From contig NZ_VCCH02000043.1 of the NCBI RefSeq assembly GCF_005938675.2, positions 1 to 64,000 of the forward strand: a stretch of DNA of 64,000 bases. The letters run 5' to 3'. The position numbers and the translations under genes were made by a program. This DNA is from Mycobacterium sp. KBS0706. GTDB taxonomy: Bacteria > Pseudomonadota > Alphaproteobacteria > DSM-16000 > Inquilinaceae. Shown piece by piece: positions 3,357 through 23,157 of this stretch. Each line of letters starts with the position of its first letter. Position 1 is the stretch's first letter. The notes beneath the pieces are model-generated. The model was not told where the DNA came from, ran no database searches, and saw only the letters and a list, made by a program, of their open reading frames with translations.

Positions 3357-3452
3357 AGTGAATGGAGCTATGCCGGGCCAGAGCCAGGACAGAATCGCGC
3401 CGTCGCCATCCACCTCCTCGCCGCCTTCCTCGCCAGTAAATGTCTGCGGACC

Positions 3453-4475: not shown

Positions 4476-4531
4476 CCATCATCGAAAAAAGATCGAACAT
4501 AACGCTTTACCTAACAAAACCATACTGGAAC

Positions 4532-4567
4532 GCTACCGTTAGCCAAAGCAAGAGCTAATGCGTTAGC
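4532..4567. promoter_or_regulatory. Tandem palindromic LacI-type operator candidates
   Basis: Two inverted repeats share the half-site GCTA(A): GCTACCGTTAGC at 4532-4543 and GCTAATGCGTTAGC at 4554-4567, centres 22-23 bp apart. They lie between the LacI start and the transporter start at 4589; the second is only 21 bp from that ATG. Near-symmetry around a central CG-containing core is typical of LacI/GalR operators. Binding by the adjacent regulator is inferred from position. Confidence 0.6.
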
Positions 4568-4588
4568 CCTACTGGCTGGGAGGACACC

Positions 4589-8725: not shown

Positions 8726-9712
8726 ATGCTCGGCTACATCCTCAAGCGCATTCTCTACATGGTGCCGACGCTGTTCGGCATGTCGCTGATCTCGTTCCTG
8801 ATCATCCAGTTGCCGCCGGGCGACTACCTGACCTCGCTCCTGTCCTCCTGGTCCGACAACGGCCAGCCGATCGACCCGGCGCAGATCGAGCGGTTGCGCG
8901 CGCAATACGGCTTCGACCAGCCCTTCTACGTCCAGTACTGGAAATGGATGTCCGGCATCCTGTTCCGCGGTGACTTCGGCTATTCCTTCGACTGGAACCA
9001 GCCGGTCGCCGGGCTGATCTGGGACCGCATGGGGTCGACACTGGCGATCTCGCTGGCCAGCCTGGTCTTCGTCTGGGCGGTGTCGCTGCCGATCGGCATC
9101 TATTCCGCCGTCCGCCGGCATTCGGTCGGCGATCATGTCTTCACCTTCCTAGGCTTCCTCGGCCTGGCGATCCCGAACTTCATCTTCGCTCTGACGCTGA
9201 TGTATCTCTGCTACCGCTACCTGGGGCAGAGCGTCGGCGGCCTGTACTCGCCGGAATACACCGATGCGCCGTGGAGTTGGGGCAAGGCCTGGGACCTGCT
9301 GGCCCATCTCTGGATTCCGGTCGTGGTCATCGGCACCTCCGGCACGGCGGCGCTGATCCGCATCCTGCGGGCCAACCTGACCGACGAGCTGAACAAGCCC
9401 TATGTCGTCACCGCCCGGGCCAAGGGCCTGCCGGAGCACCGGCTGGTGCTGCGCTACCCGGTGCGGATCGCGCTGAACCCCTTCATCTCGGCGATCGGCT
9501 GGGTGCTGCCCCATCTGGTCTCGGGCGTCACCATCACCGCGATCGTGCTGAACCTGCCGACCGCCGGGCCGCTGCTGCTGCGGGCGCTGGTGTCGCAGGA
9601 CATGTACCTGGCCGGCAGCTTCATCCTGCTGCTCAGCGCATTGACGCTGGTCGGCATGCTGGTCTCCGACCTGCTGCTGGCGCTGCTCGACCCCCGCATC
9701 CGGTTCAGCTGA
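8726..9712 (+). CDS. ABC transporter permease, DppB type
   Basis: A 328-residue inner-membrane permease beginning MLGYILKRILYMVPTLFGMS, the typical first helix of DppB/OppB proteins. The cytoplasmic EAA loop that contacts the ATPase is visible around VTARAKGLPEHRLVLRYPVR. A GGAGGAG-type ribosome binding site lies just upstream of 8726. It forms the translocation pore with the permease at 9723 and is energised by the dual ATPase at 10900. Usual length; nothing missing. Confidence 0.92.
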   Translation: MLGYILKRILYMVPTLFGMSLISFLIIQLPPGDYLTSLLSSWSDNGQPIDPAQIERLRAQYGFDQPFYVQYWKWMSGILFRGDFGYSFDWNQPVAGLIWDRMGSTLAISLASLVFVWAVSLPIGIYSAVRRHSVGDHVFTFLGFLGLAIPNFIFALTLMYLCYRYLGQSVGGLYSPEYTDAPWSWGKAWDLLAHLWIPVVVIGTSGTAALIRILRANLTDELNKPYVVTARAKGLPEHRLVLRYPVRIALNPFISAIGWVLPHLVSGVTITAIVLNLPTAGPLLLRALVSQDMYLAGSFILLLSALTLVGMLVSDLLLALLDPRIRFS

Positions 9713-9722
9713 GGGCCGCGCC

Positions 9723-10895
9723 ATGACCATTCAGGACCTGGCGGATCTGGACAGCGAAGGGCCGGCGACCAGCCCGCTCAAGCCCGGCCGCGGCGCCGCG
9801 GCCAGGGAGGCGGTCGGCCCCTGGCGGCTGATGCTGGGCAAGCTGCTGCGCCAGAAGGTGGCGATGGCGGCCGGGGCCGTGGTGCTGCTGCTCTACCTCG
9901 TCGGCGCCTTTGCCGAATTCCTCGCGCCCTCCAGCCCGGACCTGTCGCGGTCGCAATACACCTACGCCCCGCCGCAGGGCTTGAGCCTGTTCGCGCCGAC
10001 GAAGGACGGCGGCTGGGAGTTCAACCTGCACGTCAAGGGCTACAAGGTCGAGATCGACCCGCAGGCGCTGCGCCGCACCTTCGTCGTCGACGACAGCAAG
10101 ATCGTGCCGGTCGGCTTCTTCGTCAAAGGCCGGCCCTACAAGCTGTGGGGGCTGGTCCCGCTCGACCGGCACCTGATCGGGCCGGTCAACCCGAACGACC
10201 CGATGTACCTGCTGGGCGCCGACCGGCTCGGCCGCGACCTGCTCTCGCGGCTGGTCCACGGCACCCGGATCTCGATGTCGATCGGCCTGGTTGGCGTCGC
10301 CATGTCGCTCATCCTCGGCGTGGTGCTGGGCGCGGTTTCCGGCTTCTATGGCGGCTGGGTCGACATGCTGATCCAGCGGCTGATCGAGGTGGTCAGCGCC
10401 ATGCCGACCATCCCGCTCTGGCTCGGCCTGGCCGCCGCCATCCCGCTCAGCTGGTCGCCGCTGCAGGTCTATTTCGTCATCACCGTGATCGTCTCGCTGC
10501 TCGGCTGGACCGGGCTGGCGCGCGAGGTGCGAGGCCGGTTCCTGGCCCTGCGCGGCGAGGATTTCGTCACCGCCGCCCGGCTCGACGGGTCGGGCGAGCG
10601 GCGGCTGATCTTCCGCCACATCCTGCCGTCGCTGACCAGCCATATCCTGGCCGTGGTCACCCTCGCCGTGCCGACCATGATCGTGGCCGAGACCTCGCTG
10701 TCCTTCCTCGGCATCGGGCTGAAGCCGCCGGTGGTCAGCTGGGGCGTGCTGCTGCAGGACGCGCAGAGCATCCGCACCGTTGCAACCGCCCCCTGGCTGC
10801 TGTTCTGGCCCGGCCTCGCCGTGGTGGTCGCCGTCCTCGCCTTCAACTTCTTCGGCGACGGGCTGCGCGACGCCGCCGACCCGTATGAGAGCTGA
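9723..10895 (+). CDS. ABC transporter permease, DppC type
   Basis: A 390-residue second permease. It has a cytoplasmic N-terminus, a first membrane helix (VAMAAGAVVLLLYLVGAF), then an unusually long periplasmic stretch of about 110 residues before the TLGADRLGRD-like region (here LLGADRLGRDLLSR) and the core helices. The EAA loop reads DFVTAARLDGSGERRLIFRH. The long loop is found in permeases paired with long family-5 binding proteins and may dock the 647-residue protein. It starts 10 nt after the previous stop; the next gene overlaps it or starts within 5 nt. Confidence 0.92.
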   Translation: MTIQDLADLDSEGPATSPLKPGRGAAAREAVGPWRLMLGKLLRQKVAMAAGAVVLLLYLVGAFAEFLAPSSPDLSRSQYTYAPPQGLSLFAPTKDGGWEFNLHVKGYKVEIDPQALRRTFVVDDSKIVPVGFFVKGRPYKLWGLVPLDRHLIGPVNPNDPMYLLGADRLGRDLLSRLVHGTRISMSIGLVGVAMSLILGVVLGAVSGFYGGWVDMLIQRLIEVVSAMPTIPLWLGLAAAIPLSWSPLQVYFVITVIVSLLGWTGLAREVRGRFLALRGEDFVTAARLDGSGERRLIFRHILPSLTSHILAVVTLAVPTMIVAETSLSFLGIGLKPPVVSWGVLLQDAQSIRTVATAPWLLFWPGLAVVVAVLAFNFFGDGLRDAADPYES

Positions 10896-10899
10896 GGCA

Positions 10900-12636
10900 A
10901 TGGACGCACCCGACGACGTGGCGCTGTCGGTCCGCGACCTGTCGCTCGACTTCCACCTGCGCACCCACATCCTGCACGCGGTCCGCAACGTCGGCTTCGA
11001 CCTCCGCCGCGGCCGGACGCTGTGCCTGGTGGGCGAGAGCGGCTCGGGCAAGAGCGTCACCGCCCGCGCCCTGCTGCGCATCGTCGACAAGGCGGGCCGG
11101 ATCACCGGCGGCCGGATCCTGCTGCGGGCGGAGGGGCGCGAGATCGACGTGGCAGCGCTGGACCCGCGCGGCCGCGACATCCGGGCCATCCGCGGCCGCC
11201 GGATCGGCCTGATCTTCCAGGAGCCGATGAGCTCGCTGTCGCCGGTGCACAGCATCGGCTCGCAGATCGTCGAGGCGATCCGCCTGCACACGGCGCTGGA
11301 TCGGCGCGAGGCGAAGCAGCGGGCGATCGAGCTGCTGCGCCAGGTCGAGATCCCGGATCCGGAGCGGATGGCGGACCGCTACACCTTCGAGTTCTCCGGC
11401 GGCATGCGGCAGCGGGCGATGATCGCCATGGCGCTGGCCTGCGACCCGGACATCCTGATCGCCGACGAGCCGACCACGGCGCTGGACGTCACCACCCAGG
11501 CCGAGATCCTGGACCTGATCAAGCGGCTGCAGGTCGAGCGCGGCATGGCGATGCTGCTGATCACCCATGACATCGGCGTGGTGGCCGAGGTCGCCGACGA
11601 CGTGGCGGTGATGCGCTTCGGCCGGATCGTCGAGCAGGGCCCGGTCGACGACATCTTCCATCGGGCGCAGCACCCCTACACCCGCCGCCTGCTGGCCTCG
11701 ACCGCGAAGCTCGAGGCGGGCGGGGCGAGGCGGGCAGGGGCCGCGGCCGCCGGCGCGCCGATCCTCTCCGTGCGCGGCTTGGGCAAGGTCTATGGCGACG
11801 CCCGCCGCTGGCTTCCCGGCAGCGGCCGCTACGCGCTGCGGGCGGTCGACGACGCCAGCTTCGACCTGCATCCCGGCGAAAGCCTCGGCATCGTCGGCGA
11901 GAGCGGCTCCGGCAAGACCACGCTCGGCCGCCTGGTGCTGCGCATCGTCGAGCCCAGCGCGGGCACCGTCGCCTATCGCGACCGTGAGGGGCGCGAGGTC
12001 GAGGTGACGGGCCTGGGCAAGCGCGAGCTGCGCCGCTTCCACCGCGAGGTCCGGCTGGTGTTCCAGGACCCGTTCTCCTCGCTCAACCCGCGGATGACGG
12101 TCAAGGACATCATCGGCGACCCGCTGCGGGTCAACGGCCTGGCGCAGGGCCCGGCGCTGGAGGCGAAGGTCGCCGGACTGATGGCGCTGGTCGGGCTCGA
12201 CCCGCAGGCGATGGAGCGGCACCCGCACGCCTTCTCCGGCGGCCAGCGCCAGCGCATCGGCATCGCCCGCGCTCTGGCGCTCGACCCGCGCATCATCATC
12301 GCCGACGAGGCGACCTCGGCGCTCGACGTGTCGATCCGCAGCCAGATCCTCGACCTGCTGCTGGAGCTGCGGGCCCGGCTGGGCCTCAGCTTCCTGTTCA
12401 TCTCGCACGACATCTCGGTGGTGCGGTACTTCTGCGACCGGGTGATCGTCATGCACAAGGGCCGGATCGTGGAGACCGGCGACGCCGAGCAGATCTGCAT
12501 CCGGCCGCGCGAGCCCTACACGCAGCGACTGATCTCGGCCGTGCCCAGCCCCGACCCGCGCCGCAAGCGCATGCTGCATCGCCTGCGGGTCGACGAGCCG
12601 CCGGCAATCGCCGCGAGAAGCGGTGCCGGCGGCTGA
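10900..12636 (+). CDS. Dual ABC transporter ATPase (DppD-DppF fusion)
   Basis: A 578-residue chain with two complete ATP-binding cassettes. The first has Walker A GESGSGKS (about residue 44) and signature FSGGMRQR (about 165); the second has Walker A GESGSGKT (about 333) and signature FSGGQRQR (about 445). Each is followed by the family-5 C-terminal extension (HPYTRRLL and EPYTQRLI). It powers the importer formed by the two preceding permeases. Starts at 10900 (short GAGG spacing) or 10885 (overlapping the previous stop) are both possible. The second family-5 importer at 47377-50973 has no ATPase, so this protein could serve both. Confidence 0.92.
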
Positions 12637-12648
12637 CCGCAAGCTTCC

Positions 12649-12677
12649 AGAGCCCGATGATTTCGGGTCGGATCGCG
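12649..12677 (+). repeat. Dispersed 29-bp repeat, copy 1
   Basis: This copy matches 18040-18068 at 22 of 29 positions around a shared core GATGATTT. It lies just after the stop of the dual ATPase and includes CCCGA/TCGGG arms (12653-12657 and 12663-12667). The two copies bracket the ATP-grasp island. They look like eroded members of an intergenic repeat family. Confidence 0.45.
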
Positions 12678-12911
12678 CTGGAGGGATCGCACCGGGCGTA
12701 GCCTCTCCTCCCCGGGCTCGACCCCGGGGACCGCAGGAGAGGCAACGCGAAGACGCTCGGTATCCCGTCAGCCCCTGGCCGATGCGGTGACGTGACCCGA
12801 CCCAATTCATCCCGCTCTGGCGAGGGCGGGAAACCACGTGTGGGCGTCCTGGGCTTGTCGAGCATTCACCCTCCGATCGCCCATGTCACTCTAATTCTTC
12901 TGTCTCAGTCC

Positions 12912-13017
12912 AGGGGTGCAGTCCACCCAAGGGGTGCAGTCCATCACACGCGGCACCGGCGCTGAGAGGTGCATGTCACCATCGCCGACCTGCTGGCAAG
13001 TGCCGGTGCGAGCCCCT
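12912..13017 (+). ncRNA. Candidate structured RNA element, unassigned
   Basis: Nested pairing can be drawn: AGGGG (12912-12916 or the duplicated 12930-12934) with CCCCT (13013-13017), GCACCGGC (12953-12960) with GCCGGTGC (13002-13009), and GGTG (12968-12971) with CACC (12977-12980). The motifs GGGGTGC and CTGAGAGG recall the thiamine pyrophosphate riboswitch, but the conserved 3' part of that aptamer is absent. It may be a decayed aptamer, a different RNA or chance pairing. No gene follows it directly; the M6 operon begins about 600 bp downstream. Confidence 0.25.
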
Positions 13018-13035
13018 CTGATAACGCGTAGAAAT

Positions 13036-13063
13036 CCGCCGTCGTTGCGCCGAACGACGGCGG
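13036..13063. other. Strong hairpin, 11-bp perfect stem
   Basis: CCGCCGTCGTT, six-base loop GCGCCG, AACGACGGCGG. The stem is perfect but no T-run follows, so it is not a standard intrinsic terminator. It lies just after the candidate structured RNA and could belong to the same transcript or block read-through from the upstream operon. Confidence 0.5.
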
Positions 13064-13345
13064 GATCCCTCGCCGTCCCGTGCTGTGCTTTAGCCAAGGA
13101 GATGTTCCAGTCAGCAAGTCAACATGTTGCGAAATCGCGTGACTCTCGAATTAAAATAAGGGATAATTAACAAATGGTGGGATAAATTCTTAGAATAGGG
13201 AATTATCCATGAACGCTTCGGAAGCATAGAACCTCTTGACTGTGTCGTTGTTTGAGCTGAGCTCTGTTGAGCTACGAACGTCGATCTTCTGCGTTTTGAC
13301 TCTCAGCGTTGGCCCAGGAGCTGACGGCGCGTTCTTATGGGCATT

Positions 13346-13531
13346 TCATTGGGCGGGGTCTTTCGCATCGCTGAGCCGTTCCACGGACCTGCCGGGATGC
13401 TTGAGGAGAGCCTCGAGAGCGCCTGAGACAACCGAGGGCGCATATCGGTCCCTGTAAAAGCGGGCATGGCTCGAGAACACGCTTTTCGCAATGCGCGGCC
13501 GGCCGGGCCGGCGCTTCGTGCCGGACTTCAT
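13346..13531 (-). CDS. Small basic hypothetical protein, doubtful
   Basis: A 61-residue open frame starting MKSGTKRRPGRPRIAKSV, with a KRRPGRPR stretch like an AT-hook, then SSHARFYRDRYAPSVVSGAL. It is divergent from the M6 operon. No good ribosome binding site precedes it and another frame overlaps the same stretch, so it may be chance or the remnant of a DNA-binding protein. Confidence 0.25.
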   Translation of the reverse strand: MKSGTKRRPGRPRIAKSVFSSHARFYRDRYAPSVVSGALEALLKHPGRSVERLSDAKDPAQ

Positions 13532-13625
13532 TTTTGAATCGTCATCCGATCGCAGTCTGAAAACGACGCAACACTGGTACTGATCGAAACGATTCCGAAA
13601 ATCACGATATTGGGGAGGATGTTCT

Positions 13626-15518
13626 ATGACGAATCACGATAGTCGCAGATGCGAGCATCATCGCATCCGAACAGCCATCGCTGTGTGGTCGGATTTTTGT
13701 GCGGTGGCCCCGAGCCCAGAACTGAAGGATCGCTTGAAAGCCGACTTGGCTGACGCGAAGAAGAAGTCAAAGTCCCCGCTCGCAGCAGCCTTTGGTCTCG
13801 CCAAAGGCCCACGTCGCTTGGGCTTTGACGATGGAGTAATCGTGCCACCGGATAAATTCCCGGTTGGGACGCCTTTTTCACTAATTCGTTCTGCGGCAGC
13901 CGATCGGGCACCGCTTCACGGAACCTTGCGTGTGGTCGTCGTGCTGGTGCAGTTTTCCGATCACGCGATGGCGCAGGCCGTGGCCCATTTCGACGACATC
14001 TTCTTCTCGACCGGTGTGCTCCCGAACGGCAGCGTTAAGGAGTACTATCGGGACGTCACGGGAGGACTGGTCGATATCGTTGGCGAGGTAGTCGGACCAT
14101 ATCAGTTGCCTCAGACACTCGCCTGGTACGCCAACAACAACTTCGGCATCGGCCGCCCCTCCGGTACGCCGCGCGCAAACATTATGGCGCGGGACGCCGC
14201 TGTCGCGGCGAATCCTCATGTAAACTTTGGCTTATATGACAACGACGGCAACGGCTACATCGACGCGTTTATTGTTGTGCATGCCGGCCAGGGTGGCGAG
14301 CAGACAGGAAATCCCAATGACATCTGGTCCCACAAGTGGACGCTTCCCTCGGCTTATGCCGCAGACGGCAAGCAGATCTTTGCGTACCTGACAATCCCAG
14401 AGGACGCACGGATCGGGGTTTGCGCGCATGAACTCGGCCATCTCCTTTTTGGTTTCCCTGATCTCTATGATACCGACGACACGTCCGAGGGCATCGGCAA
14501 TTGGTGCCTGATGGCGGGCGGTTCGTGGAATGGCGGCGGCGACGTGCCTGCGCATCCCTCGGCATGGTGCAAGGTCCAGCAGGCCTGGGCGACCGTCACC
14601 AACATCTCGACCAATGGCGCGATCTCTATTCCGGACGTCAAGGTGAGCCGGAATATCCATCGCCTGTGGAAGGATGGCGCTGGGGGTTCGGAATACTTCC
14701 TGCTGGAGAATCGGCAGCGCACCGGATACGACGCGGGCCTGCCAGGCGATGGTCTACTGATTTGGCACATCGACGAAGCGCAATCGGGCAACACCGACGA
14801 GAACCATTACAAGGTCGCGCTGATGCAGGCCGACGGCCAACGCGATATGGAACTCGACAACAATCGTGGAGACGCCGGCGATCCCTACCCGGGCAACGCG
14901 GGCAACACATCATTCAATGCGACATCGACCCCAAACTCGAAGTCGTACGCAGGGCAGGACACCTGTGTATCTGTTGTCGGTATTTCGGCATCGGGCGCGA
15001 CGATGACCGCGACTGCCGCCGTGCGATGTGGAAAGTCGATCGTCAAGGACAGCAAGGACCTGAAGGACCGCATCAAGGATGGCAAGGAGCTCGCCAAAGA
15101 CCGCAAAGATCGCAAGGATCTCAGGGATCTTAAGGAACCGGTGAAGGAGGGCGCGAAAGATCGCAAAGATCTCAAAGACCGGATCGAGGGCAAGCCCATC
15201 ACCAAGGAGATTCGTGACGGGGGCGTCGGCAAGACCTCCAAGGATTTTGCCGAGGGGCCCGGTGGCGGAGGTGGCGGCTTCGGCGAGAGCGAGCCATCAC
15301 TCGATGTGCGCCAGTCAGTCGCGGAACTCGAAGCGAGGTTAACGGCCATTGAAAGCGCGCTGGGCTGGGGCGGGACCACGGAGCCATTCATCGGCAGCGA
15401 CGTGCGGCCCGATCTTGTCGGCGGCCCAGACTATACGCGGGCCGGCGACCTGCAGGAGAGGATGGCCGCCGGCGATCGCGATGCGAAGCTTGCTTTCGAC
15501 ACGTTGCCCCCGTCGTGA
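13626..15518 (+). CDS. M6-type metalloprotease with Lys/Asp-rich C-terminal tail
   Basis: A 630-residue protein. Residues about 100-450 form an M6 (immune inhibitor A-like) protease domain: VVVVLVQFSDHA at the start, a calcium-loop-like DNDGNGYIDAFIVVHAG, the zinc motif HELGH (268-272) followed by GFPDLYD, and GLLIWHID. Family relatives are usually secreted, but no signal peptide is visible. Residues about 470-541 are a low-complexity run dominated by K, D, E, R and L in KDLKD/KDRKD units, followed by a GGGGGG linker and a predicted helix. The ATG has GGGGAGG seven nt upstream. The next gene starts inside its stop codon (GTGA), so the two are translationally coupled; three downstream genes follow. 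Confidence 0.8.
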   Translation: MTNHDSRRCEHHRIRTAIAVWSDFCAVAPSPELKDRLKADLADAKKKSKSPLAAAFGLAKGPRRLGFDDGVIVPPDKFPVGTPFSLIRSAAADRAPLHGTLRVVVVLVQFSDHAMAQAVAHFDDIFFSTGVLPNGSVKEYYRDVTGGLVDIVGEVVGPYQLPQTLAWYANNNFGIGRPSGTPRANIMARDAAVAANPHVNFGLYDNDGNGYIDAFIVVHAGQGGEQTGNPNDIWSHKWTLPSAYAADGKQIFAYLTIPEDARIGVCAHELGHLLFGFPDLYDTDDTSEGIGNWCLMAGGSWNGGGDVPAHPSAWCKVQQAWATVTNISTNGAISIPDVKVSRNIHRLWKDGAGGSEYFLLENRQRTGYDAGLPGDGLLIWHIDEAQSGNTDENHYKVALMQADGQRDMELDNNRGDAGDPYPGNAGNTSFNATSTPNSKSYAGQDTCVSVVGISASGATMTATAAVRCGKSIVKDSKDLKDRIKDGKELAKDRKDRKDLRDLKEPVKEGAKDRKDLKDRIEGKPITKEIRDGGVGKTSKDFAEGPGGGGGGFGESEPSLDVRQSVAELEARLTAIESALGWGGTTEPFIGSDVRPDLVGGPDYTRAGDLQERMAAGDRDAKLAFDTLPPS

Positions 15519-16333
15519 TCCCGACGGTCCTGATCCTCGCGCACGGCTACGATACTGGTGCTATTTCGGTGGCAGGATGGCTTGCGCGCAAGCTCAGGCC
15601 CGAGGCAGTGCGAGTCATATGCCCAGAGGCGTTGAGTCTGGCTCTCTGGTCGCATCGGGTTGATGCGCGCGGCAAGGCATCAACCCGACTCGTGCTGCCA
15701 CACGCCGGGTCCTTTGCAACTTCCCAACTGGCCGCAGTGTTCAACCGTATCCAGTACCTCCCGCTCCCGCGATTCAATCGGGCAACGCCCAAGGATCGAG
15801 ATTACGCCAGCGCCGAGCTTCAAGCTGTGATGGTGAGCTGGTTAGCTGAACTGGGCGACCGCGCGGTGCATAATGTGCGGCGTCACCCTTGGCTGTCACC
15901 CTCGCTGCCTTTGCTGCATTGGGCGCGGGCCACCGCCGCTTGCGGGCTGCCGGTGGCAGCGCATGTTGTGGCGAACTCGCCGCGAGTGGGGGCGAGCCCG
16001 GGGAATCCACCACTCACCTCAGTTACCGACGGCCAATTTGCTAACTCGAGAGTCGCTCGTGATCGTCGCAACGGCCTGGACAATGGTGTCCTCATGGGTA
16101 CGGTGCTGGTCGCGGGCGAAGAGGCCGGAGGACAGCTGGCCGATCGCTGGGGCTCAAATTGCATCGAGGCGGCCAAGTCACTCGACTTCCCGCTGCTGGA
16201 GTTCCGGTTCGCACTGGAGGACCGGGAGATGGTCCTGGTTGCCGTGGACCCGTTGCCCACACTAATCGACCCCTGGGCCACAGCCCTCGCGGGTCGCCTG
16301 CTTTGCACCCTCGCAAGGGAGGCATCGCAGTGA
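15515..16333 (+). CDS. Degenerate ATP-grasp-like protein (putative pseudoenzyme)
   Basis: A 272-residue protein starting at GTG 15515, overlapping the protease stop by 4 nt. By eye it parallels the ATP-grasp ligase encoded next. An FNRIQYLP strand (77-84) matches the xxRP strand of the ligase's N-terminal domain; HNVRRHPWLSPSLPLLHWA (119-137) matches its VNRPRAMQSNASKPLQAQL. NCIEAAKSLDFPLLEFRF matches RCVALARQMDLPLAGIDLR, and AVDPLP (243-248) occupies the place of EVNPMP. The metal-binding Glu and Asn are thus Ala243 and Asp245, and most of the nucleotide-binding middle is missing. It therefore looks like a catalytically dead paralogue, perhaps a partner or scaffold subunit. This homology is my alignment, not a database result. 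Confidence 0.65.
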   Translation: MIPTVLILAHGYDTGAISVAGWLARKLRPEAVRVICPEALSLALWSHRVDARGKASTRLVLPHAGSFATSQLAAVFNRIQYLPLPRFNRATPKDRDYASAELQAVMVSWLAELGDRAVHNVRRHPWLSPSLPLLHWARATAACGLPVAAHVVANSPRVGASPGNPPLTSVTDGQFANSRVARDRRNGLDNGVLMGTVLVAGEEAGGQLADRWGSNCIEAAKSLDFPLLEFRFALEDREMVLVAVDPLPTLIDPWATALAGRLLCTLAREASQ

Positions 16334-17334
16334 TCCTCATCTATGGACGAATCGATGATCCCCCCTTGGCAGGTGCCATTGAGGCGTTGCAGGAGGCCGG
16401 CGCGCCGTATGTTCTCCTCGAGCAAACTGCGCTCGATCGAGAGGGGCTTCGAATCGAAGTGGGACAGAAAGGCGTCGATGGCGTTCTCGTTGCCGCCGGA
16501 GAGGTGATTGCCCTCGAACGCTTCCATAGCATCTATGCCCGGCCGCTCGAATTGCAACCGCCCGTATTCGATCCGGCGGGAGCATCGCGGGCGCGGCTGC
16601 TTCATGAGCAGTTGTTCGAATGGCTGGATGTGGCCAACGCGCTGGTGGTGAATCGGCCTCGAGCAATGCAGTCCAACGCCTCCAAGCCGCTGCAGGCGCA
16701 GCTGATCGGCGCAGCAGGATTCGAAGTCCCAGAGACATTGGTAACAAGTAACCCTGAAGAGGTTCGCGCCTTCTGGCAGGAGCATGGTCGCGTCGTATAC
16801 AAATCCGCCTCCGGCGTACGCTCGATCGTGCAGGAATTCCAAGAGCGCGACGTTGCACGCCTGGCGCGTCTAGCCGCCCTGCCAGTGCAGTTTCAAGCCT
16901 ACGTGCCTGGCGTGGATGTGCGGGTGCATGTGGTCGGTCGTCGCGCGTTCGCCGCGACGATCGATAGCCCCGTGATCGACTATCGGTATGCGGCGCGCGA
17001 GGGCGCAATGGCTACACTGGAGCGAACCGATCTGCCTCGATCGGTCGCCGCGCGATGCGTTGCACTGGCGCGGCAGATGGACCTACCACTCGCCGGTATC
17101 GATCTGCGGCGGCGGCCGGACGGGCAATACATCTGCTTTGAGGTGAATCCAATGCCGGCCTATACTTATTTTGAGGCCCATACCGGGCTACCAATCGGCC
17201 GTGCGCTCGCTCAACTCCTGATCTCGGGTGAGGGCAAGGAAAGTGCGGGGCTCCACCGTGGTGCAGGCAGTCGAAAATCTTACCGAAATTCACGGGAGGG
17301 TCATCTCGCGGCGACCTCATCCCAGGCTCGGTGA
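16330..17334 (+). CDS. ATP-grasp ligase (RimK/MvdD-like)
   Basis: A 334-residue ATP-grasp protein starting at GTG 16330 within the preceding stop (GTGA overlap). It has an N-terminal pre-ATP-grasp domain with SIYARPLEL, then VVNRPRAMQSNASKPLQ and FEVPETLVTSNPEE at the substrate-lid position. The phosphate-contacting YKSASGVRS (Lys158) follows, then YVPGVDVRVHVVG, and the metal-binding AGIDLRRR (Asp258) and FEVNPMP (Glu271, Asn273). The order is that of MvdC/MvdD-like ligases, which join side chains through acyl-phosphate intermediates, and of RimK. The real domain ends near LLISG (residue 300); the last 34 residues look out of frame, and the next gene overlaps them. The substrate is probably encoded in the same operon. 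Confidence 0.8.
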   Translation: MILIYGRIDDPPLAGAIEALQEAGAPYVLLEQTALDREGLRIEVGQKGVDGVLVAAGEVIALERFHSIYARPLELQPPVFDPAGASRARLLHEQLFEWLDVANALVVNRPRAMQSNASKPLQAQLIGAAGFEVPETLVTSNPEEVRAFWQEHGRVVYKSASGVRSIVQEFQERDVARLARLAALPVQFQAYVPGVDVRVHVVGRRAFAATIDSPVIDYRYAAREGAMATLERTDLPRSVAARCVALARQMDLPLAGIDLRRRPDGQYICFEVNPMPAYTYFEAHTGLPIGRALAQLLISGEGKESAGLHRGAGSRKSYRNSREGHLAATSSQAR

Positions 17335-17557
17335 CTATGACATAGTCATGCTTCACCTTGACCGTGCTGATGCGGTGCCGGGCAAGGCGAACCTGCTTGA
17401 GTCGCTGCTGGGCGGCTCCGTCGAGGTTGCGGTTCGTCGCGAGCTGCTTGGCGCGTCCGCGTCCGGCGCGCATATGCGTTGCCGTGCGAAGCGCACGCCG
17501 GATGGCGCGATGTGCGAGGCCCATCCCGCTCCGGGAAATTTTGAAGTCTCTCAATAG
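17228..17557 (+). CDS. Small conserved-looking protein, fourth gene of the ATP-grasp operon
   Basis: Up to 109 residues, overlapping the 3' end of the ATP-grasp gene by 107 nt in another frame. In-frame GTG starts lie at 17228, 17243, 17258 and 17261; the one at 17243 has AAGGA two nt upstream, and the one at 17228 sits in a GTGA like the two earlier junctions. The sequence looks genuine: AVENLTEIHGRVISRRPHP, DYDIVMLHLDRADAVPGKA, AVRRELLG, CRAKRTPDGAMCEAHPAPG. No known domain is recognised. It has no signal peptide or membrane segment and ends with a His/Pro/Gly-rich loop. Its position suggests an accessory factor or substrate of the ligase. Confidence 0.6.
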   Translation: MRARKVRGSTVVQAVENLTEIHGRVISRRPHPRLGDYDIVMLHLDRADAVPGKANLLESLLGGSVEVAVRRELLGASASGAHMRCRAKRTPDGAMCEAHPAPGNFEVSQ

Positions 17558-17785
17558 CCACTACTTGGTCTCGATGAAGCGTGAGATCTGCTAGTCGGGT
17601 AGAGCGCAGATAAATGAGCTGTGCCATCATTCGAATAATTTCATCGAGGGAGGCCGTATTGAAATTAATGCCTCCTCACATACTGTGACGCCTGTTTCTC
17701 TGATCATGTATTGAATTATCTTCTTCGATCTTCTGCGGGATGAAGCGGATAGCTCGATATACTCCCTGAGCGAGGCCCGGTTTCG

Positions 17786-18029
17786 ATGCCAGCTCGGCCG
17801 AAGCGGATGTTCGCTCTGGACGAGCTCAAGGGGCATCCAAGCGTCAGCGGAGGGGACGAGCCGGACTCCGCACGATAGGCCGTCCGGCTGCAGGAGCGCG
17901 ACATCGACACGCTGCTCGACACCGCGAGCACCGAGAAGGCCATGGTCCGCCTCTGCCGCTCCCTCGCCATCGACTCCGACATCCGCCTCGAGAACGGCCC
18001 CGCCGCCCTGCTCGACAGCAGCCGAGCGC
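17786..18029 (+). pseudogene. Gene remnant interrupted by a stop codon
   Basis: Reading from the ATG at 17786 gives MPARPKRMFALDELKG and continues to a TAG at 17876-17878. The same frame resumes with AVRLQERDIDTLLDTAS and LCRSLAIDSDIRLENGPAA to about 18029, with coding-like GC-rich third positions. The remnant is about 80 codons with one in-frame stop. The family is not recognised; a decayed regulator or transposon-borne gene is possible. Confidence 0.3.
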
Positions 18030-18039
18030 CGTCGCCGTT

Positions 18040-18068
18040 GGAGCCAGATGATTTTGGATCAGGTCACG
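18040..18068 (+). repeat. Dispersed 29-bp repeat, copy 2
   Basis: The counterpart of 12649-12677 (22 of 29 identical, core GATGATTT), in the same orientation. It sits at the downstream border of the gene-poor stretch after the ATP-grasp operon. Confidence 0.45.
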
Positions 18069-18130
18069 GGGATCGCAGCGGGCGTCGCCTCTCCCGTTTG
18101 CGAGACCTTTTCAAAACCTCCATTCCCTCA

Positions 18131-18219
18131 CCGTCATTGCGAGCGCAGCGAAGCAATCCAGGGGCCGCTCGCCGTGACCCCTGGATTGCTTCGTCGGCTT
18201 CGCCTCCTCGCAATGACGG
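18131..18219. repeat. REP-like palindromic element
   Basis: An 89-bp element with perfect 13-bp ends, CCGTCATTGCGAG and CTCGCAATGACGG, and further pairing inside (GCGAAGCAATCCAGGGG against CCCCTGGATTGCTTCG). The central loop is about CCGCTCGCCGTGA. The CATTGCGAG...CTCGCAATG family is common between genes in alphaproteobacteria. It lies just past the stop of the minus-strand oxidoreductase (18264) and is followed on the plus strand by TTTTT, so it could also end transcription from the left. Confidence 0.85.
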
Positions 18220-18263
18220 TTTTTCGTAGGCGAAGGAAGTGTCTGATCACAAGCTCGCCAGCA

Positions 18264-19262
18264 TTACCCCTCGATCTGCCGCCGCAGCGTCTCCAGATGG
18301 CGCATGGCGGTGACGCCGTCGCGGATGGTGGGGGCGTCGGCCGCCTCGCCGCGGAAGGCCTTCAGCGTCACCTCCAGCAAAGCGTGGTAGCCCTTCACGT
18401 CCTCGTTGGCGGCGGCGGTGAAGTTGGGCGACCAGGTCAGGGCGTCCTGGGTGTCGGACAGGGTGGCGCCGAGGTCCTGGGTCTTGAAGGCCGGGTCGCG
18501 GTAGTAGGTCACGTCGATGACGTTGCGCACCTCCAGCCGGCGGTGGTCGCCCATGACCTGGACGAACTCCATCGGCGTGCCGCGCGACTGCACCGTACCC
18601 ATGACGATGGTGCCGATGGCGCCGCTGTCGAAGCCCAGCGCGATGTGCATCAGCAGGCGGCCGGGTCCGTTCTCGACCTTGCGGGCAGAAATCTCGCGGA
18701 TCGGCGAGGCCGCCAGGAAGGCCGGCAGGTCCATGTAGTGGACGCAGTGATGCAGGAAGAAGCCGGAATAGTCGACCGCGCCGCGGAAATAGGTCGGCGC
18801 CGTCATGTAGGAGCCGTAGAAGCCCAGCACCGGGCCGAACTCGCCGCCGCGGACGATGTTGCCGGCGATGCGGTTGCCGATCGACCAGCGCTTCATGAAG
18901 CCGAGCACCAGCGGCTTGCCGGCACGCTCGGACGCCGCCAGCAGCTCCTCGGCCTTGGCGGCGGTGCCGCCGGGCGGCTTCTCCATGAACACCGGTAGCC
19001 CCTTGGCCAGCGCGGCGAGGCCGATGGCGTGGTGCGCCGCCGGGCCGACCGCCATGCCGACCGCGTCCAGCCCGGGATGGGCCAGCAGGTCGCGGTGGTC
19101 GGCATAGGTGGCGCGGACGCCGAACTGGCGGGCGGCGCGGGCCAGGTTGGCGCCGTCGACATCGCACAGCGCCGCCAGCTCGACGTCGTGGCGCGTCAGC
19201 TGCGGCAGCAGCATCTGGGTGGCATGGGTGCCGCAGCCGATCCAGCCGATCTTCAGCGTCAT
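18264..19262 (-). CDS. Gfo/Idh/MocA-family oxidoreductase
   Basis: A 332-residue NAD(P)-dependent sugar or inositol dehydrogenase-type protein. It has the N-terminal Rossmann motif IGWIGCGTHATQ, acidic strand end LCDVD, the family signature EKP at residues 94-96 and a histidine-rich active-site region (FLHHCVHYMDLP). Such enzymes oxidise or epimerise sugar hydroxyls. Its start overlaps the stop of the upstream isomerase by 4 nt (ATGA), so it is the last gene of the minus-strand sugar-uptake operon. Substrate unknown. Confidence 0.9.
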   Translation of the reverse strand: MTLKIGWIGCGTHATQMLLPQLTRHDVELAALCDVDGANLARAARQFGVRATYADHRDLLAHPGLDAVGMAVGPAAHHAIGLAALAKGLPVFMEKPPGGTAAKAEELLAASERAGKPLVLGFMKRWSIGNRIAGNIVRGGEFGPVLGFYGSYMTAPTYFRGAVDYSGFFLHHCVHYMDLPAFLAASPIREISARKVENGPGRLLMHIALGFDSGAIGTIVMGTVQSRGTPMEFVQVMGDHRRLEVRNVIDVTYYRDPAFKTQDLGATLSDTQDALTWSPNFTAAANEDVKGYHALLEVTLKAFRGEAADAPTIRDGVTAMRHLETLRRQIEG

Positions 19263-20176
19263 CGCCGGTGTCCTCCCATCGCCAGCGCGCCGCGCAGCAG
19301 GGCCAGGCTCTGCGTCAGCTTCTCCGTCTCGTCCTCATGCGGCGGCCGCCACTGCGCGATCGGCACGCCGAAGCGGTCGTCGTCGCGGCGGAACGGCTCG
19401 ACCGAGATCGGCCCGTCATAGCCGACATCGGCCAGCGCCCGCGCCACCGCCACCCAGTCGGTGGCGCCGGTGCCGACGAAGCCGCGATGGTTCTCATTGG
19501 CCTGGAAATGCACGAAGCGGTCGCCGGCCTGGCGGATCGCCTCGGCGATGTCGGCCTCCTCCATATGCATGTGGAAGGTGTCGAGCATCAGCCGCACCTC
19601 CGGCCGGCCGACCCGGTCGATCAGTTCCAGCCCCTGGCGGGTGGTGCACAGGATGTCGGTCTCGAACCGGTTCAGCGGCTCCACCGCCAGCGTCACCCCA
19701 TGGTCGCGGGTGGCGTCAGCGGCCCGGCGCAGCCCGTCGACGCACCAATCCTGCCGGCGCAGGCGCAGATCCTCCGGCACCGGCGCCGGCGGCCGCCCGG
19801 CGAAGACCAGCGGGTTGCCGTAGAGCGGGCCGCCGATGATGCGGGCGCCCAACGCCTCGGCGCAGCCGGCGGCATAGCGCAGATAGTCGACGCCGGCCTC
19901 GCGCGCGGCGGCCTCGTCGCCGGTCAGGTTGCGCTGCAGGTTGACCCGGGCGGCCAGCACGACGGACAGGCCGGCGCCTTCGATCGCCCGGCGGGTCTCG
20001 GCGAGGTCCAATTCGCCCGGCTCCGGCACCAGCAGCTCGATGAAGTCGTAGCCCATCGCACGGATCCGCTCGAACCAGCCGAAATGCTCGGCGGTAAAGG
20101 GGCGCGCGACTTGCATGGAGATCAGGCCGATCGGGTTCGGCATGGAGGGGGTCACTTTCGGTCGAGGGTCGGTCAT
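19259..20176 (-). CDS. Sugar phosphate isomerase/epimerase-like TIM-barrel protein
   Basis: A 305-residue xylose-isomerase-like TIM barrel. Metal-binding candidates are the glutamate in TLAVEPLNRFETD, the aspartate and histidine in RLMLDTFHMHMEEAD and the glutamate in GPISVEPF. The start at 20176 overlaps the permease stop by 4 nt (ATGA) and its own stop overlaps the next gene by 4 nt. Relatives isomerise or epimerise ketoses or act as inositol catabolic enzymes. Co-transcription with a CUT1 importer and a Gfo/Idh/MocA enzyme supports a sugar-oxidation/epimerisation pathway. Confidence 0.88.
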   Translation of the reverse strand: MTDPRPKVTPSMPNPIGLISMQVARPFTAEHFGWFERIRAMGYDFIELLVPEPGELDLAETRRAIEGAGLSVVLAARVNLQRNLTGDEAAAREAGVDYLRYAAGCAEALGARIIGGPLYGNPLVFAGRPPAPVPEDLRLRRQDWCVDGLRRAADATRDHGVTLAVEPLNRFETDILCTTRQGLELIDRVGRPEVRLMLDTFHMHMEEADIAEAIRQAGDRFVHFQANENHRGFVGTGATDWVAVARALADVGYDGPISVEPFRRDDDRFGVPIAQWRPPHEDETEKLTQSLALLRGALAMGGHRR

Positions 20177-21009
20177 CCCTTCACGGCGCCTTGGGTCAGG
20201 CCGCCGATCAGGCGTTTCTGGACGAGCAGGAACAGGATGGTGGCGGGCAGGGCGCCGACCACGCCGCCGGCGGTCAAGAGGCCCCATTCGATCTGGTATT
20301 CGCCGATCAGGGTCTGGATCGCGACGGTCATGGTGCGGACGGTGCGGCCGCCCAGCGTCAGGGCGTAGAGGTATTCGTTCCAGGCGGTGATGAAGATGTA
20401 GATCCCGGTCGCCACCAGCCCGGGGACGCACAGCGGCAGGATCACCCGCCACAGCGCGCCGAGCCGCGAGCAGCCATCGGTCATCGCCGCCTCGTCGAGG
20501 CTCTTCGGGATGGCGTCGATGTAGCTCGTCATCATCCAGATGGCGAAGGGGATGGCGACGGTGGCGTTGGCGATGATCAGCGCGACATGGGTGTCGATCA
20601 GGCCCAGCCGCCGCATCAGCACGAACAGCGGCAGGATCAGCAGCACGACCGGGAACATGTTGATGACCAGGAACTGGACCATCAGCAGCCGACGCCCGGC
20701 GAAGCGGAAGCGCGAGAAGGCATAGGCGGCGGTGACGCTCAGCGTCAGCCCGACTGCGACCGTGCCCAACGCCACGATCAGGCTGTGGCCCATGTTCAGC
20801 AGGAAGCTGGTGCGGCCGAACAGCCGCTCATAGCTGGCGCTGGTCCAGGCCGACGGGTCGACGGCGACGCCGCGGCCGACGATGTCGTCCGGCGGCGTCA
20901 GCGAGGTCAGCGCCATCCACAGATAGGGGCCCAGCGCGAAGCCCGCGATCAGCAGCATCGGCAGGTGGATCAGGCCGATGCGCTGCCAGGGAGAGCTGCG
21001 GGTGACCAT
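20173..21009 (-). CDS. CUT1 sugar ABC transporter permease, MalG type
   Basis: A 278-residue permease with six expected membrane segments, beginning [19 protein letters not shown]. The EAA loop is visible at [20 protein letters not shown]. The protein ends with [13 protein letters not shown], the usual C-terminal signature of MalG-type permeases. The start shares one base with the MalF-type stop (TGATG). No ATPase gene is in this operon, so a shared MsmX/UgpC-like ATPase elsewhere is implied. Confidence 0.93.
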
Positions 21010-21926
21010 CAGTCCATCGCCCTCGTGGTGCGCCGTAGATAGACCAGGACGAAGCCGGCCAGCAGCAGGGTGAAGATCACCGCCAGGGCCGAGCCGTAGC
21101 CGAAGTCGAGATTGGTCCTGGCCTTGATGAAGGCGTAGAGCGGCAGGGTGTGGGTGGCGTAGCCCGGGCCGCCGCCGGTCATGACGAAGATGACGTCGAT
21201 CGAGTTGGCGACCCAGATCAGCCGCAGCAGCGCCGCGGTCGCGATCACCCCGGCGATCGAGGGCAGGGTGATCCGCCAGAACTGCTGCCAGGGCGTGGCG
21301 CCGTCGATCGCTGCCGCCTCGTACAGGTCGCGCGGCACCGCCTGCAGCCCGGCCAGGATCATCACCGCGAAGAACGGGAAGCCCTGCCAGGTCAGGGTCA
21401 GGATGATGGCGTAGAGCGAGGTGCCGGGATCGGCCAGCCAAGGGAAGGCGCCCTGCAGCATGCCGAGGCGCACCAGCACGTCGTTCAGCACCCCGGCGTT
21501 CGGGTCGTAGATCCAGCGCCACATCAGGGCGATGACGACGCTGGGCAGCGCCCAGGGGATGATGACCACGGCCCGCGCCAGCGGCCGCCACCAGAAGCGC
21601 TGGTTCAGCAGCAGCGCGGTGACGAGGCCGAGCAGCAGCTGGGCCGGGACCGTGATCCCGACCCAGAGCGCGGTGTGCTGCAGCGAGGTCCAGAACACCG
21701 GGTCAGCCAGCGCCTTGGCGAAGTTGCCGAGCCCGGCGAAGGGCATCTGGTTCGGCCGGAACAGCACGAAGTCGTGCAGGCTCAGGACCAGCGCCTGCAG
21801 CATCGGCAGGAACACGATCAGCAGCGTGACCAGCACCGCCGGGCTCAGCAGCACATAGGGCAGGATCCGGGTCCGCGCCTTGCCGCGGACCGGGGCCCTC
21901 CGTGCCGTCGCTAGGGTCATCGACAT
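21009..21926 (-). CDS. CUT1 sugar ABC transporter permease, MalF type
   Basis: A 305-residue permease starting MSMTLATARRAPVRGKARTR with a first helix around VLLSPAVLVTLLIVFLP. The EAA loop reads DLYEAAAIDGATPWQQFWRI, a textbook MalF/UgpA motif. It pairs with the MalG-type permease whose gene overlaps its stop. It starts 17 nt after the stop of the binding-protein gene. Confidence 0.93.
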   Translation of the reverse strand: MSMTLATARRAPVRGKARTRILPYVLLSPAVLVTLLIVFLPMLQALVLSLHDFVLFRPNQMPFAGLGNFAKALADPVFWTSLQHTALWVGITVPAQLLLGLVTALLLNQRFWWRPLARAVVIIPWALPSVVIALMWRWIYDPNAGVLNDVLVRLGMLQGAFPWLADPGTSLYAIILTLTWQGFPFFAVMILAGLQAVPRDLYEAAAIDGATPWQQFWRITLPSIAGVIATAALLRLIWVANSIDVIFVMTGGGPGYATHTLPLYAFIKARTNLDFGYGSALAVIFTLLLAGFVLVYLRRTTRAMD

Positions 21927-21942
21927 AAGCCTCGTCCTCGCC

Positions 21943-23157
21943 TTACGGGGCGTAGAGCTGCTCGATCTCCTGCATCATCTGCTCCGGCGTGATCTCGCCG
22001 GTCAGGGCCCGCTGCATCGCCGCCGGCCACACCGTGTTGACGAAATCCGCGGTCTGCGAGACGGCCGGCAGGCTGTGGGCGAAGGGCAGGGACTGCACCG
22101 TGGCGTCGACGAAGCGCTTCTCGTGCAGCGTCCAGCTGGCCGCGCCGCTCTTGGTCACGGGCAGCTGGCCGGTCGCCTTGTTGAACTCGACATTGGCGTC
22201 GCCGCTGGCCAGGAAGGCGATCCATTTCCAGGCCGCGTCCTTGTCCTCGGCCGAGGACAGCACGGCCAGGGATTCGTCGCCATAGGAGGTCCAGCGGCCG
22301 CCATTGCATTCCGGCACCGGCACGGCGGAGACCTTGTCGCCCAGCGCCTTCACCATGCCGGCGGAGGAGCCGATATGGTGGATCGTCATCGCCGTGCGGC
22401 CCTGCTGGAAGGCGGCGATGATCTCCTGGAACCCGTCATTCGGGGCCGAGGGCGGGAACAGCTTCTGGTTGCGGAAGAGATCGACCAGCCAGGTGTTGGC
22501 GGCGACCACCGGCTGGCTGGTCAGCCCGCCCTTCTCGAATTTGGCGCCAGCCGACAGGACGAACGGCCCCCAATGGTCATAGCCGCCCTTGCCGCCGCGG
22601 AAGCCGAAGCCCCAGATGTCCGGCTGGCCGTCGCCATTGGTGTCGCGGGTCAGCGCCTTGGCCGCTTTGGCGAAGTCGTCGCAGGTCTTCGGCGGCTGCA
22701 GCCCGGCCTCGGCGAACAGGTCGGCGCGGTAGTAGAGGTAGGAGACGACGTACTGGACCGGCAGGTAGTACTGCTTGCCGTCCGGCCCGCCATTGATCTT
22801 CAGCAGGTCGTCCTGCAGGTCGGCCTTGCCGTCCCAGCCGGCGACCCGGTCGTCGATCGGCTCCAGCGCCCCCATCTCCACCAGCCGCGGCTGGGCGAAC
22901 AGCTTCACCATCGCCGCATCCGGCGCGTTGCCGCCGGCGATCGCGGTGTAGAGGTTGTCGTAATAGCTGTTCCAGGGGATGTTCTCGGCCTCGACCTTGA
23001 TCCCCGGATTGGCCGCCTCGAACTTGGCGACCAGATCGGCCACCGGATTGTCCGGATTGTCGAAATGGTACCAGAAGCGGACTGTGCTCTCGGCCTGCGC
23101 CGACCCGGCGGCCAGCGCCAGCAGCGCGGCGAGCGCCGCGCCCTGCATCTTCCTCAT
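21943..23157 (-). CDS. CUT1 extracellular sugar-binding protein, family 1
   Basis: A 404-residue periplasmic binding protein with a Sec signal peptide (MRKMQGAALAALLALAAGS, cleaved near AQAES). It has family-1 hallmarks: FWYHFDNPDNPV, FEAANPGIKVE and TAIAGGNAPDAAMV. The start at 23157 has GGAGGAGG upstream. It delivers a sugar or sugar derivative to the MalF/MalG-type pair encoded directly downstream. It is second in the operon, after the alpha/beta hydrolase. Confidence 0.92.
   Translation of the reverse strand: MRKMQGAALAALLALAAGSAQAESTVRFWYHFDNPDNPVADLVAKFEAANPGIKVEAENIPWNSYYDNLYTAIAGGNAPDAAMVKLFAQPRLVEMGALEPIDDRVAGWDGKADLQDDLLKINGGPDGKQYYLPVQYVVSYLYYRADLFAEAGLQPPKTCDDFAKAAKALTRDTNGDGQPDIWGFGFRGGKGGYDHWGPFVLSAGAKFEKGGLTSQPVVAANTWLVDLFRNQKLFPPSAPNDGFQEIIAAFQQGRTAMTIHHIGSSAGMVKALGDKVSAVPVPECNGGRWTSYGDESLAVLSSAEDKDAAWKWIAFLASGDANVEFNKATGQLPVTKSGAASWTLHEKRFVDATVQSLPFAHSLPAVSQTADFVNTVWPAAMQRALTGEITPEQMMQEIEQLYAP

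Follow-up and report, generated by a model that had tools for sequence, protein, structure and literature searches.

A tail-bearing metalloprotease encoded with a graspetide-type ATP-grasp ligase and its degenerate twin: a candidate operon for the stapling of whole enzymes

The graspetide synthetases of solved structure, PsnB, CdnC, MdnB/MdnC and PruB, act on small peptides with N-terminal leaders, and graspetides themselves are known as small peptides. Here we describe a four-gene operon at positions 13,626–17,557 of a 64,000-nucleotide stretch of contig NZ_VCCH02000043.1 from Mycobacterium sp. KBS0706 (the window). It encodes an M6 metalloprotease, a pseudo-ATP-grasp partner, an ATP-grasp ligase and a small protein. 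The synthetases named above are nearest to its ligase by sequence and fold, and to its partner by fold. In this operon and in its relatives across phyla, what is modified appears instead to be a tail, portable and attached to complete enzymes. Comparative evidence leads us to regard the operon as a probable protein-modification system of the graspetide type, in which the substrate would be the C-terminal tail of a whole enzyme, carrying Lys-Asp/Glu cross-links in its repeat. The tail is common to unrelated enzymes, proteases in many cases, encoded beside the presumed cross-linking enzyme and its twin, suggesting that in bacteria whole enzymes are stapled chemically at their tails.

Among described systems, corallotide (CorA–D) contains KxxxD isopeptides made by a TIGR04187 enzyme, which needs a partner protein for full activity, according to the accessible part of PMC13097080. 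The operon shares with it a TIGR04187-type synthetase, a large repeat as the presumed substrate and the KxxxD motif. However, as far as the same part of that source goes, the corallotide substrate is a repeat peptide (about 22 kDa with its His tag) for which no enzyme domain is mentioned, whereas here it would be a whole enzyme; the corallotide enzymes bind an N-terminal domain of the substrate, whereas the module here is C-terminal; and the partner is a 2-oxoglutarate (2OG) oxygenase rather than a degenerate ATP-grasp. Neither the 2OG oxygenase nor the beta-lactamase of the corallotide-type cluster is among the four operon genes. Two 2OG-Fe(II) oxygenases do follow the ATP-grasp pair of a related locus on a Megaera plasmid (L006, 5465–8965), recalling the hydroxylated isopeptides of corallotide. 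For ThfB, the accessible part of PMC13003496 reports that a leader relocated to the C-terminus is still functional. ThfB also shows that an enzyme of this kind can cyclise constructs of up to 258 residues.

The closest described gene neighbourhoods are the branch 8 loci of PMC8939145, which in the portion available combine peptidases of unrelated families with a truncated, inactive ATP-grasp and have no predictable precursor. Group 32 of PMC13097080, in its accessible part, has neighbouring proteases of diverse families. Window-type loci probably correspond to both branch 8 and group 32. As in branch 8, the peptidases here belong to unrelated families (M6, M43, S8 and trypsin-like, the last mostly below cut-offs), and the ATP-grasp paralogue is shortened and has lost active-site residues. 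Unlike in the branch 8 account, so far as that portion extends, the peptidase itself bears a conserved core and a presumed recognition tail, and the partner exceeds the two N-terminal domains described there, aligning nearly end to end with the ligase profile. An earlier sequence-only reading of this DNA was aware of no described pathway with this composition; for peptidases with a truncated ATP-grasp this does not stand, and the system is not wholly undescribed. As far as our literature searches show, the shared tail is new, and so are its attachment to the peptidase, the change of cargo in front of it and its tracking of the ATP-grasp type; the open-licence PMC literature, supplements excluded, yielded no description of the tail, which may be described elsewhere. 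If the branch 8 match holds, the tail would supply the missing precursor of peptidase-associated ATP-grasp loci, and, if the proposal is true, the degenerate ATP-grasp gains a role and a ready tag system for stapling proteins becomes available.

All four genes lie head to tail on the forward strand, with GTGA overlaps at the gene 1/gene 2 and gene 2/gene 3 junctions, just as first read. Gene 1 (P0001, 13626..15518) encodes a 630-residue protein. Its M6 protease domain (residues 105–381, 13938..14768, coordinates of the library match) scores above the cut-offs of both TIGR03296 (240.6 bits against 110.8, E 3e-71) and PF05547 (82.5 bits against 22, E 4e-23), and the HExxH of M6 metalloproteases is present by eye as HELGH. 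No PDB relatives were found by phmmer at E 0.01. The domain is followed by a Lys/Asp-rich repeat, the presumed core (residues 474–528, 15045..15209, from motif counts against shuffles), and by a conserved C-terminal module containing PFIGSDVRPDL, presumed to serve recognition (residues 563–630, 15312..15515, from a tail hidden Markov model, HMM). The C-terminal KLAFD (15486..15500), which fits the KxxxD pattern, is KVAFD in the orthologue from genome G397, a protein 73% identical over 624 aligned columns that has a K/D repeat and a tail of the same type. The metalloprotease with a Lys/Asp-rich tail is thus upheld, although the sequence-only reading, having seen the repeat, overlooked the conserved motif behind it that is key to the system.

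Gene 3 (P0003, 16330..17334) encodes the 334-residue ATP-grasp ligase. Against NCBIfam, TIGR04187 is the best match (136.1 bits), followed by MvdD and MvdC (82.7 and 82.5 bits), with RimK and glutathione synthetase weaker; the best Pfam match is the broad RimK model (25.8 bits). By sequence the ligase is nearest to PsnB (5e-44), and PsnB, CdnC, MdnC, PruB, MdnB and AMdnB lie between 5e-44 and 7e-28; the nearest folds are also graspetide synthetases, PsnB first. The ligase has the MvdD/PsnB-type ATP-grasp fold with intact residues that we take to serve ATP/Mg binding. K158, R198, E271 and N273 align with conserved PsnB residues and are invariant in the 24 ATP-grasps of alignment A6 (which excludes loci L025 and G559), while about 35 residues at the 3' end of the gene are unconserved. 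RimK-group ATP-grasp ligases add glutamates, and gene 3 does match RimK, so that the ligase might add amino acids to the tail by RimK-like glutamylation, or attach the tail to something else, for instance a cell-surface polymer, with no internal cross-link. Given that the RimK matches (7e-12 and weaker) fall behind those of all six graspetide synthetases, we consider this improbable. By its best models and structures gene 3 is of neither the RimK nor the glutathione-synthetase type, so the stand-alone ligase that could have undone the sequence-only reading is not what it encodes. A glutathione-synthetase-like gene does occur on another contig of the same genome, C444, together with a tail-like match in a YraN-like open reading frame (ORF), both named by eye; we rejected this as a second system.

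Gene 2 (P0002, 15515..16333, 272 residues) is a degenerate graspetide synthetase, shorter than the ligase and with its active-site residues lost, in agreement with its first description as a dead-looking ligase paralogue. In hhalign, the profiles of partner and ATP-grasp can be aligned over nearly their whole length (probability 98.8, E 8e-17). In this alignment K158 of the ligase falls opposite a gap in the window partner and R198 opposite Thr, while LVAVDPLP stands opposite CFEVNPMP of the ligase, so that both the Glu and the Asn are gone. The structures nearest to the AlphaFold2 model of the partner (predicted local distance difference test score 81.9) are AMdnB, PsnB, MdnB and CdnC. The protein is therefore presumably inactive as a catalyst. 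Searches of Pfam and NCBIfam returned no family match at E 0.05 or better for genes 2 and 4. With gene 2 alone as query, no relative was confirmed in the genome contigs and none was found in plasmids; in 61 genomes the only match was weak and full of stops.

The first leads to related loci came from plasmids, in the form of a Megaera locus. It carries two ATP-grasps, of which the second looks degenerate, together with a 53-residue 'KDKKDGKD' ORF and a 41-residue ORF that contains 'SFISFDLRPDL'. In a class sample of 385 genomes, eight had an ATP-grasp at E 1e-10 or better, three of them close (the window, G086 and G094). Scanning an alignment of four ATP-grasps (A1) over genome contigs gave 23 loci with ATP-grasps 37–72% identical, distributed over Acidobacteriota, Pseudomonadota, Bacteroidota, Nitrospirota, Actinomycetota, Chloroflexota and WOR-3 (seven phyla); one of them, L038, is on the same contig as the G086 locus. 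A partner ORF lies directly 5' of the ATP-grasp in all 23, often with a 4-base overlap, and measures 223–253 residues (starts by eye) against 272 for the window partner; in L025 its beginning is cut off, and the ATP-grasp there is also split into two frames (715–1618). An RPDL motif near the C-terminus of a forward-strand ORF upstream of the partner was found in 20 of the 23 loci. L037 and L047 have variants (FIVPDERP and FIGPEERP), as does G094, and the contig of L025 ends before the substrate gene. The same loose pattern gave seven other matches in 27 stretches; six are on the opposite strand, and the seventh lies in a frame that overlaps the L035 ATP-grasp. These loci thus hold a candidate precursor next to the synthetase, as a C-terminal module instead of an N-terminal leader, and this module would be what the ligase recognises.

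An HMM built from 21 tails, with those of the window and G094 excluded, was searched against 4261 ORFs (part of the window being counted twice). It matched the held-out window protease at E 7e-5 and the 41-residue Megaera ORF at E 0.006. The G559 locus, found later and present in no alignment, matched the partner profile at 266 bits and the tail profile at 43. Genome-wide, 18 of 20 host genomes were positive for the tail at E 0.001 or better. In 17 of them it occurs only at the ATP-grasp locus (in two genes in G407, host of one Nitrospira locus), and the 18th, G397 (host of L025), has its match at a contig end, in the M6 orthologue of the window protease; in the hosts of the kelch variants L037 and L047 this search detected no tail. 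Among 247 genomes from the phylum to which L028 belongs (Acidobacteria according to its record), two have an ATP-grasp at 413 bits or more, one of them being the seed, and the tail was found in the same two, on the same contigs and adjoining the ATP-grasp. Three further genomes of this sample, with ATP-grasps at 148–190 bits, had no tail, and no partner in the stretches taken. In the class sample, the tail of G086 was matched at 2e-21; this search, in which 16 of the window's 105 candidates were scored, missed the window itself. More distant ATP-grasps (L005, L007, L008, L009, L012–L016 and L079–L081) had no partner or tail in the stretches examined, and the ATP-grasp profile confirmed none of 13 candidate stretches in viral contigs. 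Genes 1–3 therefore co-occur, as would be expected from the sequence-only reading, which had proposed to look for all four together; gene 4 was found, among the loci examined, only in the window and its closest relative. Together with the type of the ligase, this co-occurrence argues for its suggestion of a graspetide-like or self-modifying protease system.

The tail follows the consensus RLxxLExxIxxLxHFIxxxLRPDLxxGALxxExD. The cores in front of it contain 25–37% Lys, plus Asp/Glu, in 26 of 27 proteins, L038 being without a core before the motif. The motif K[DE]x[KR][DE] occurs 157 times in 26 cores, against a mean of 19 and a maximum of 33 in 300 shuffles, which ignore kinship, and summed over the same cores Kxxx[DE] occurs 290 times and [DE]xxxK 187 times. 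The near-copy L034 was omitted from the motif totals and kept in the Lys count; Megaera and L017 (same contig as L038) were omitted from both. In the window core, K[DE]x[KR][DE] occurs 8 times against a shuffle mean of 0.5, and Kxxx[DE] 9 times against none for [DE]xxxK (10 against 0 in G397). In nine tails KDxKD also lies C-terminal to the RPDL motif. Corallotide is cross-linked between the Lys and the Asp of KxxxD, the pattern also seen in the tails. The S8 relative encoded at L038 (1769–3109) is shorter than its kin (446 residues) and, without a K/E core, retains the RPDL module, with KDQKD at the C-terminus.

Segments rich in K and E form single helices, and the usual helix-stabilising order places E before K at i+4. 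The repeat might be no more than a helical spacer with charges, and the RPDL module no more than a docking tag, with the ATP-grasp pair acting as chaperone or export adaptor. In favour of such a reading, no signal peptide stood out among the 27 tail proteins in a crude hydropathy check in which several starts were uncertain. However, the invariance of the four PsnB-conserved residues in the ligases speaks against it, and the order in the window core is the opposite of the stabilising one, even if six other cores lean the other way. On balance we give this explanation little credence.

The domain in front of the tail differs from locus to locus. In Pfam and NCBIfam searches, S8 subtilases were found in L036, L038 (below cut-off), L040, L041, L044 and L045, and trypsin-like/NAL1-like domains, nearly all below cut-offs, in L026, L027, L030, L032, L033, L034, L042 and L046. 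M6 proteases occur in the window and G397, an M43 protease in G559, kelch/oxidase-like proteins in L018, L037 and L047, and a lectin-like bacteriocin domain, below cut-off, in the second gene of L036. Six of the 23 loci (L028, L029, L031, L035, L039 and L043) have the repeat and tail with no recognised domain; the small proteins of L029 (Methylocapsa) and L031 (Sphingopyxis) measure 175 and 138 residues. At L036 (3637–7177, Nitrospira), the subtilase and the bacteriocin relative, both tail-bearing, precede one ATP-grasp pair. A branch with 100/100 support in the tree of ATP-grasps has on one side every row that has partner and tail, plus Megaera (27 of 33 rows); the outgroups are L005, L007, L008, L079, L080 and one gene of L081. 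The seven labels on this tree, six cargo types and the outgroups, require 12 changes, against a possible minimum of 6 and a shuffled mean of 21.3. Cargo is thus also clustered on the tree, and S8 is the one cargo type for which the well-supported branches by themselves demand more than one change.

The M43 proteases provide the sharpest comparison. That of G559 and that of Burkholderia stagnalis are 72% identical over 301 residues. The former ends in (KKxEPD)n repeats and HFIQQSQRPDV and adjoins a partner and an ATP-grasp of the gene 3 type, whereas the latter ends in Thr/Asp repeats and APFVLSTP and adjoins an MvdD-type enzyme, with no partner found. Since these related proteases carry unlike tails beside unlike ATP-grasps, the tail follows the ATP-grasp type and not the protease. 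Given this pair and the variation of the cargo domain, the tail is best read as the substrate. Two loci have sister architectures. L007 (4115–6624) has an M43 protease with a Thr/Asp repeat tail beside an MvdD-type ATP-grasp, with no partner, and L079 (reverse strand, 3401–5510) has a 375-residue (DPKx)n repeat protein ending in GPFILTTNWPY that adjoins an MvdD-type ATP-grasp, again with no partner. In L078 and L079 a large gene with a similar start (NMPFAA) lies downstream of the ATP-grasp; that of L078 matches radical S-adenosylmethionine (SAM) domains and, below cut-off, B12-binding ones, and may encode another tailoring enzyme.

The same survey bears on two other roles for the peptidase. 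It might be a maturation enzyme in cis, the cross-linked tail being the product, a graspetide that the protease domain cuts off. The recognised domains of tail-bearing proteins are indeed mostly proteases of unrelated families, and the accessible part of PMC13097080 suggests that the proteases neighbouring groups 26, 30, 32 and 40 mature the product or confer resistance. Nevertheless, the six loci without a recognised enzyme domain and the kelch/oxidase-like proteins keep the tail without a protease, and no cleavage site between domain and repeat was apparent by eye, no systematic search having been made; we consider cis-maturation unlikely, though worth bearing in mind. For branches 7 and 8, PMC8939145 in its available portion proposes that the peptidase cuts other cell proteins and that the ATP-grasp modifies the resulting peptides, with the precursor encoded elsewhere, and reports no precursor in such loci. 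Here, however, the shared tail places donor and acceptor residues in the same operon, and loci without a recognised peptidase retain it. This proposal therefore appears very improbable for the present loci.

In the mechanism that we propose for a tail modified on the enzyme itself, the gene 3 ligase, with the gene 2 protein as its bound partner, would recognise the M6 protease by its C-terminal 'RLxxLE...FIxxxxRPDL' module. The ATP-grasp would activate Asp/Glu side chains of the adjoining K/D-rich repeat as acyl phosphates, and attack by Lys side chains would yield a series of isopeptide (lactam) cross-links, most likely between a Lys and an Asp/Glu four positions further along. The enzyme that precedes the tail would be a cargo, exchanged repeatedly in evolution. 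The chemistry and the partner dependence are suggested by analogy with corallotide, and the C-terminal recognition by the ThfB precedent. The stapled, protease-resistant tail would belong to a secreted or released enzyme, on which our first choice of role is a stiff, protease-proof spacer or anchor and our second a product to be cut off. Whether this extends to a general principle, in which an ATP-grasp and a degenerate twin build a Lys-Asp/Glu isopeptide ladder on K/E/D-rich helical tails of proteases and of oxidase-like, lectin-like and further proteins, with a portable recognition module that makes any protein a substrate by fusion and has repeatedly done so in evolution, seems to us evenly balanced.

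Several observations weigh against the proposed modification of the tail. The tail of the window itself is divergent: in a search of its genome alone it was the best match, but at E 0.01. Gene 3 lies far below the NCBIfam cut-offs (136.1, 82.7 and 82.5 bits against 350 for TIGR04187, 475 for MvdD and 425 for MvdC). The tail HMM missed the variant tail of G094 among the 4261 ORFs, and three class-sample genomes have weak tail matches (0.002–0.01) without an ATP-grasp of the gene 3 type. The second ATP-grasp-like ORF of Megaera was called degenerate from an alignment of 16% identity and was unmatched by the partner HMM, as was the Megaera tail by the A5 HMM (E 0.01). The repeat is not uniform: [DE]xxxK outnumbers Kxxx[DE] in L018, L029, L033, L034, L039 and the second gene of L036, and K[DE]x[KR][DE] is absent in L018, L037, L038, L047 and L078 and at shuffle level in L029, L035 and L039. 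The cores of L037 and L047 are only 18–19 residues long, and L038 has none. The K/E segment could be a plain charged helix.

Gene 4 (P0004, 17228..17557, 109 residues) starts inside gene 3, as first read, and is real: a homologue of 98 residues lies directly behind the ATP-grasp of the closest relative, L025 (49% identity, E 4e-29), by which we reject a chance ORF. Since this homologue corresponds to the window ORF from residue 11 onwards, translation probably starts at the GTG at 17258 and not at 17228. Beyond the window and L025, the next best match in the loci examined had E 0.24. As a guess, the product of gene 4 may be the M6 enzyme's own inhibitor or chaperone. It would then be a counterpart to the small genes that precede other tail proteins. 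In nine of 16 cases, the small gene just upstream of a tail protease matches the N-terminal (pro-)domain of such proteases at blastp E 0.01 or better (L027, L032, L033, L034, L038, L041, L042, L044 and L045; L041 is weak, and L033 and L034 are near copies). It is as if the N-terminal domain were also made in trans, where it might restrain the protease.

As regards the setting, the record of the closest relative L025 is labelled Acidobacteria, whereas the window genome belongs to the class of a record labelled Rhodospirillales and was scored as 9.8% contaminated; the identity of the window's host may therefore be worth checking. None of the four proteins matched a PADLOC defence model at E 0.001. 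No tRNA that could serve as integration site lies in 9000–22000. The AT-richer, repeat-bordered surroundings described in the sequence-only reading were recovered. The G+C content is 61.5% in the operon and 68.0% in the window, and 17 of 241 operon-sized sliding windows, including those overlapping the operon, are equally low. The operon is flanked by 26-bp direct repeats (12683..12708 and 18069..18094, forward strand), whose copies are identical at 24 of 26 positions; with up to two mismatches, the pattern occurs only at these two sites in the 8.97-Mb genome.

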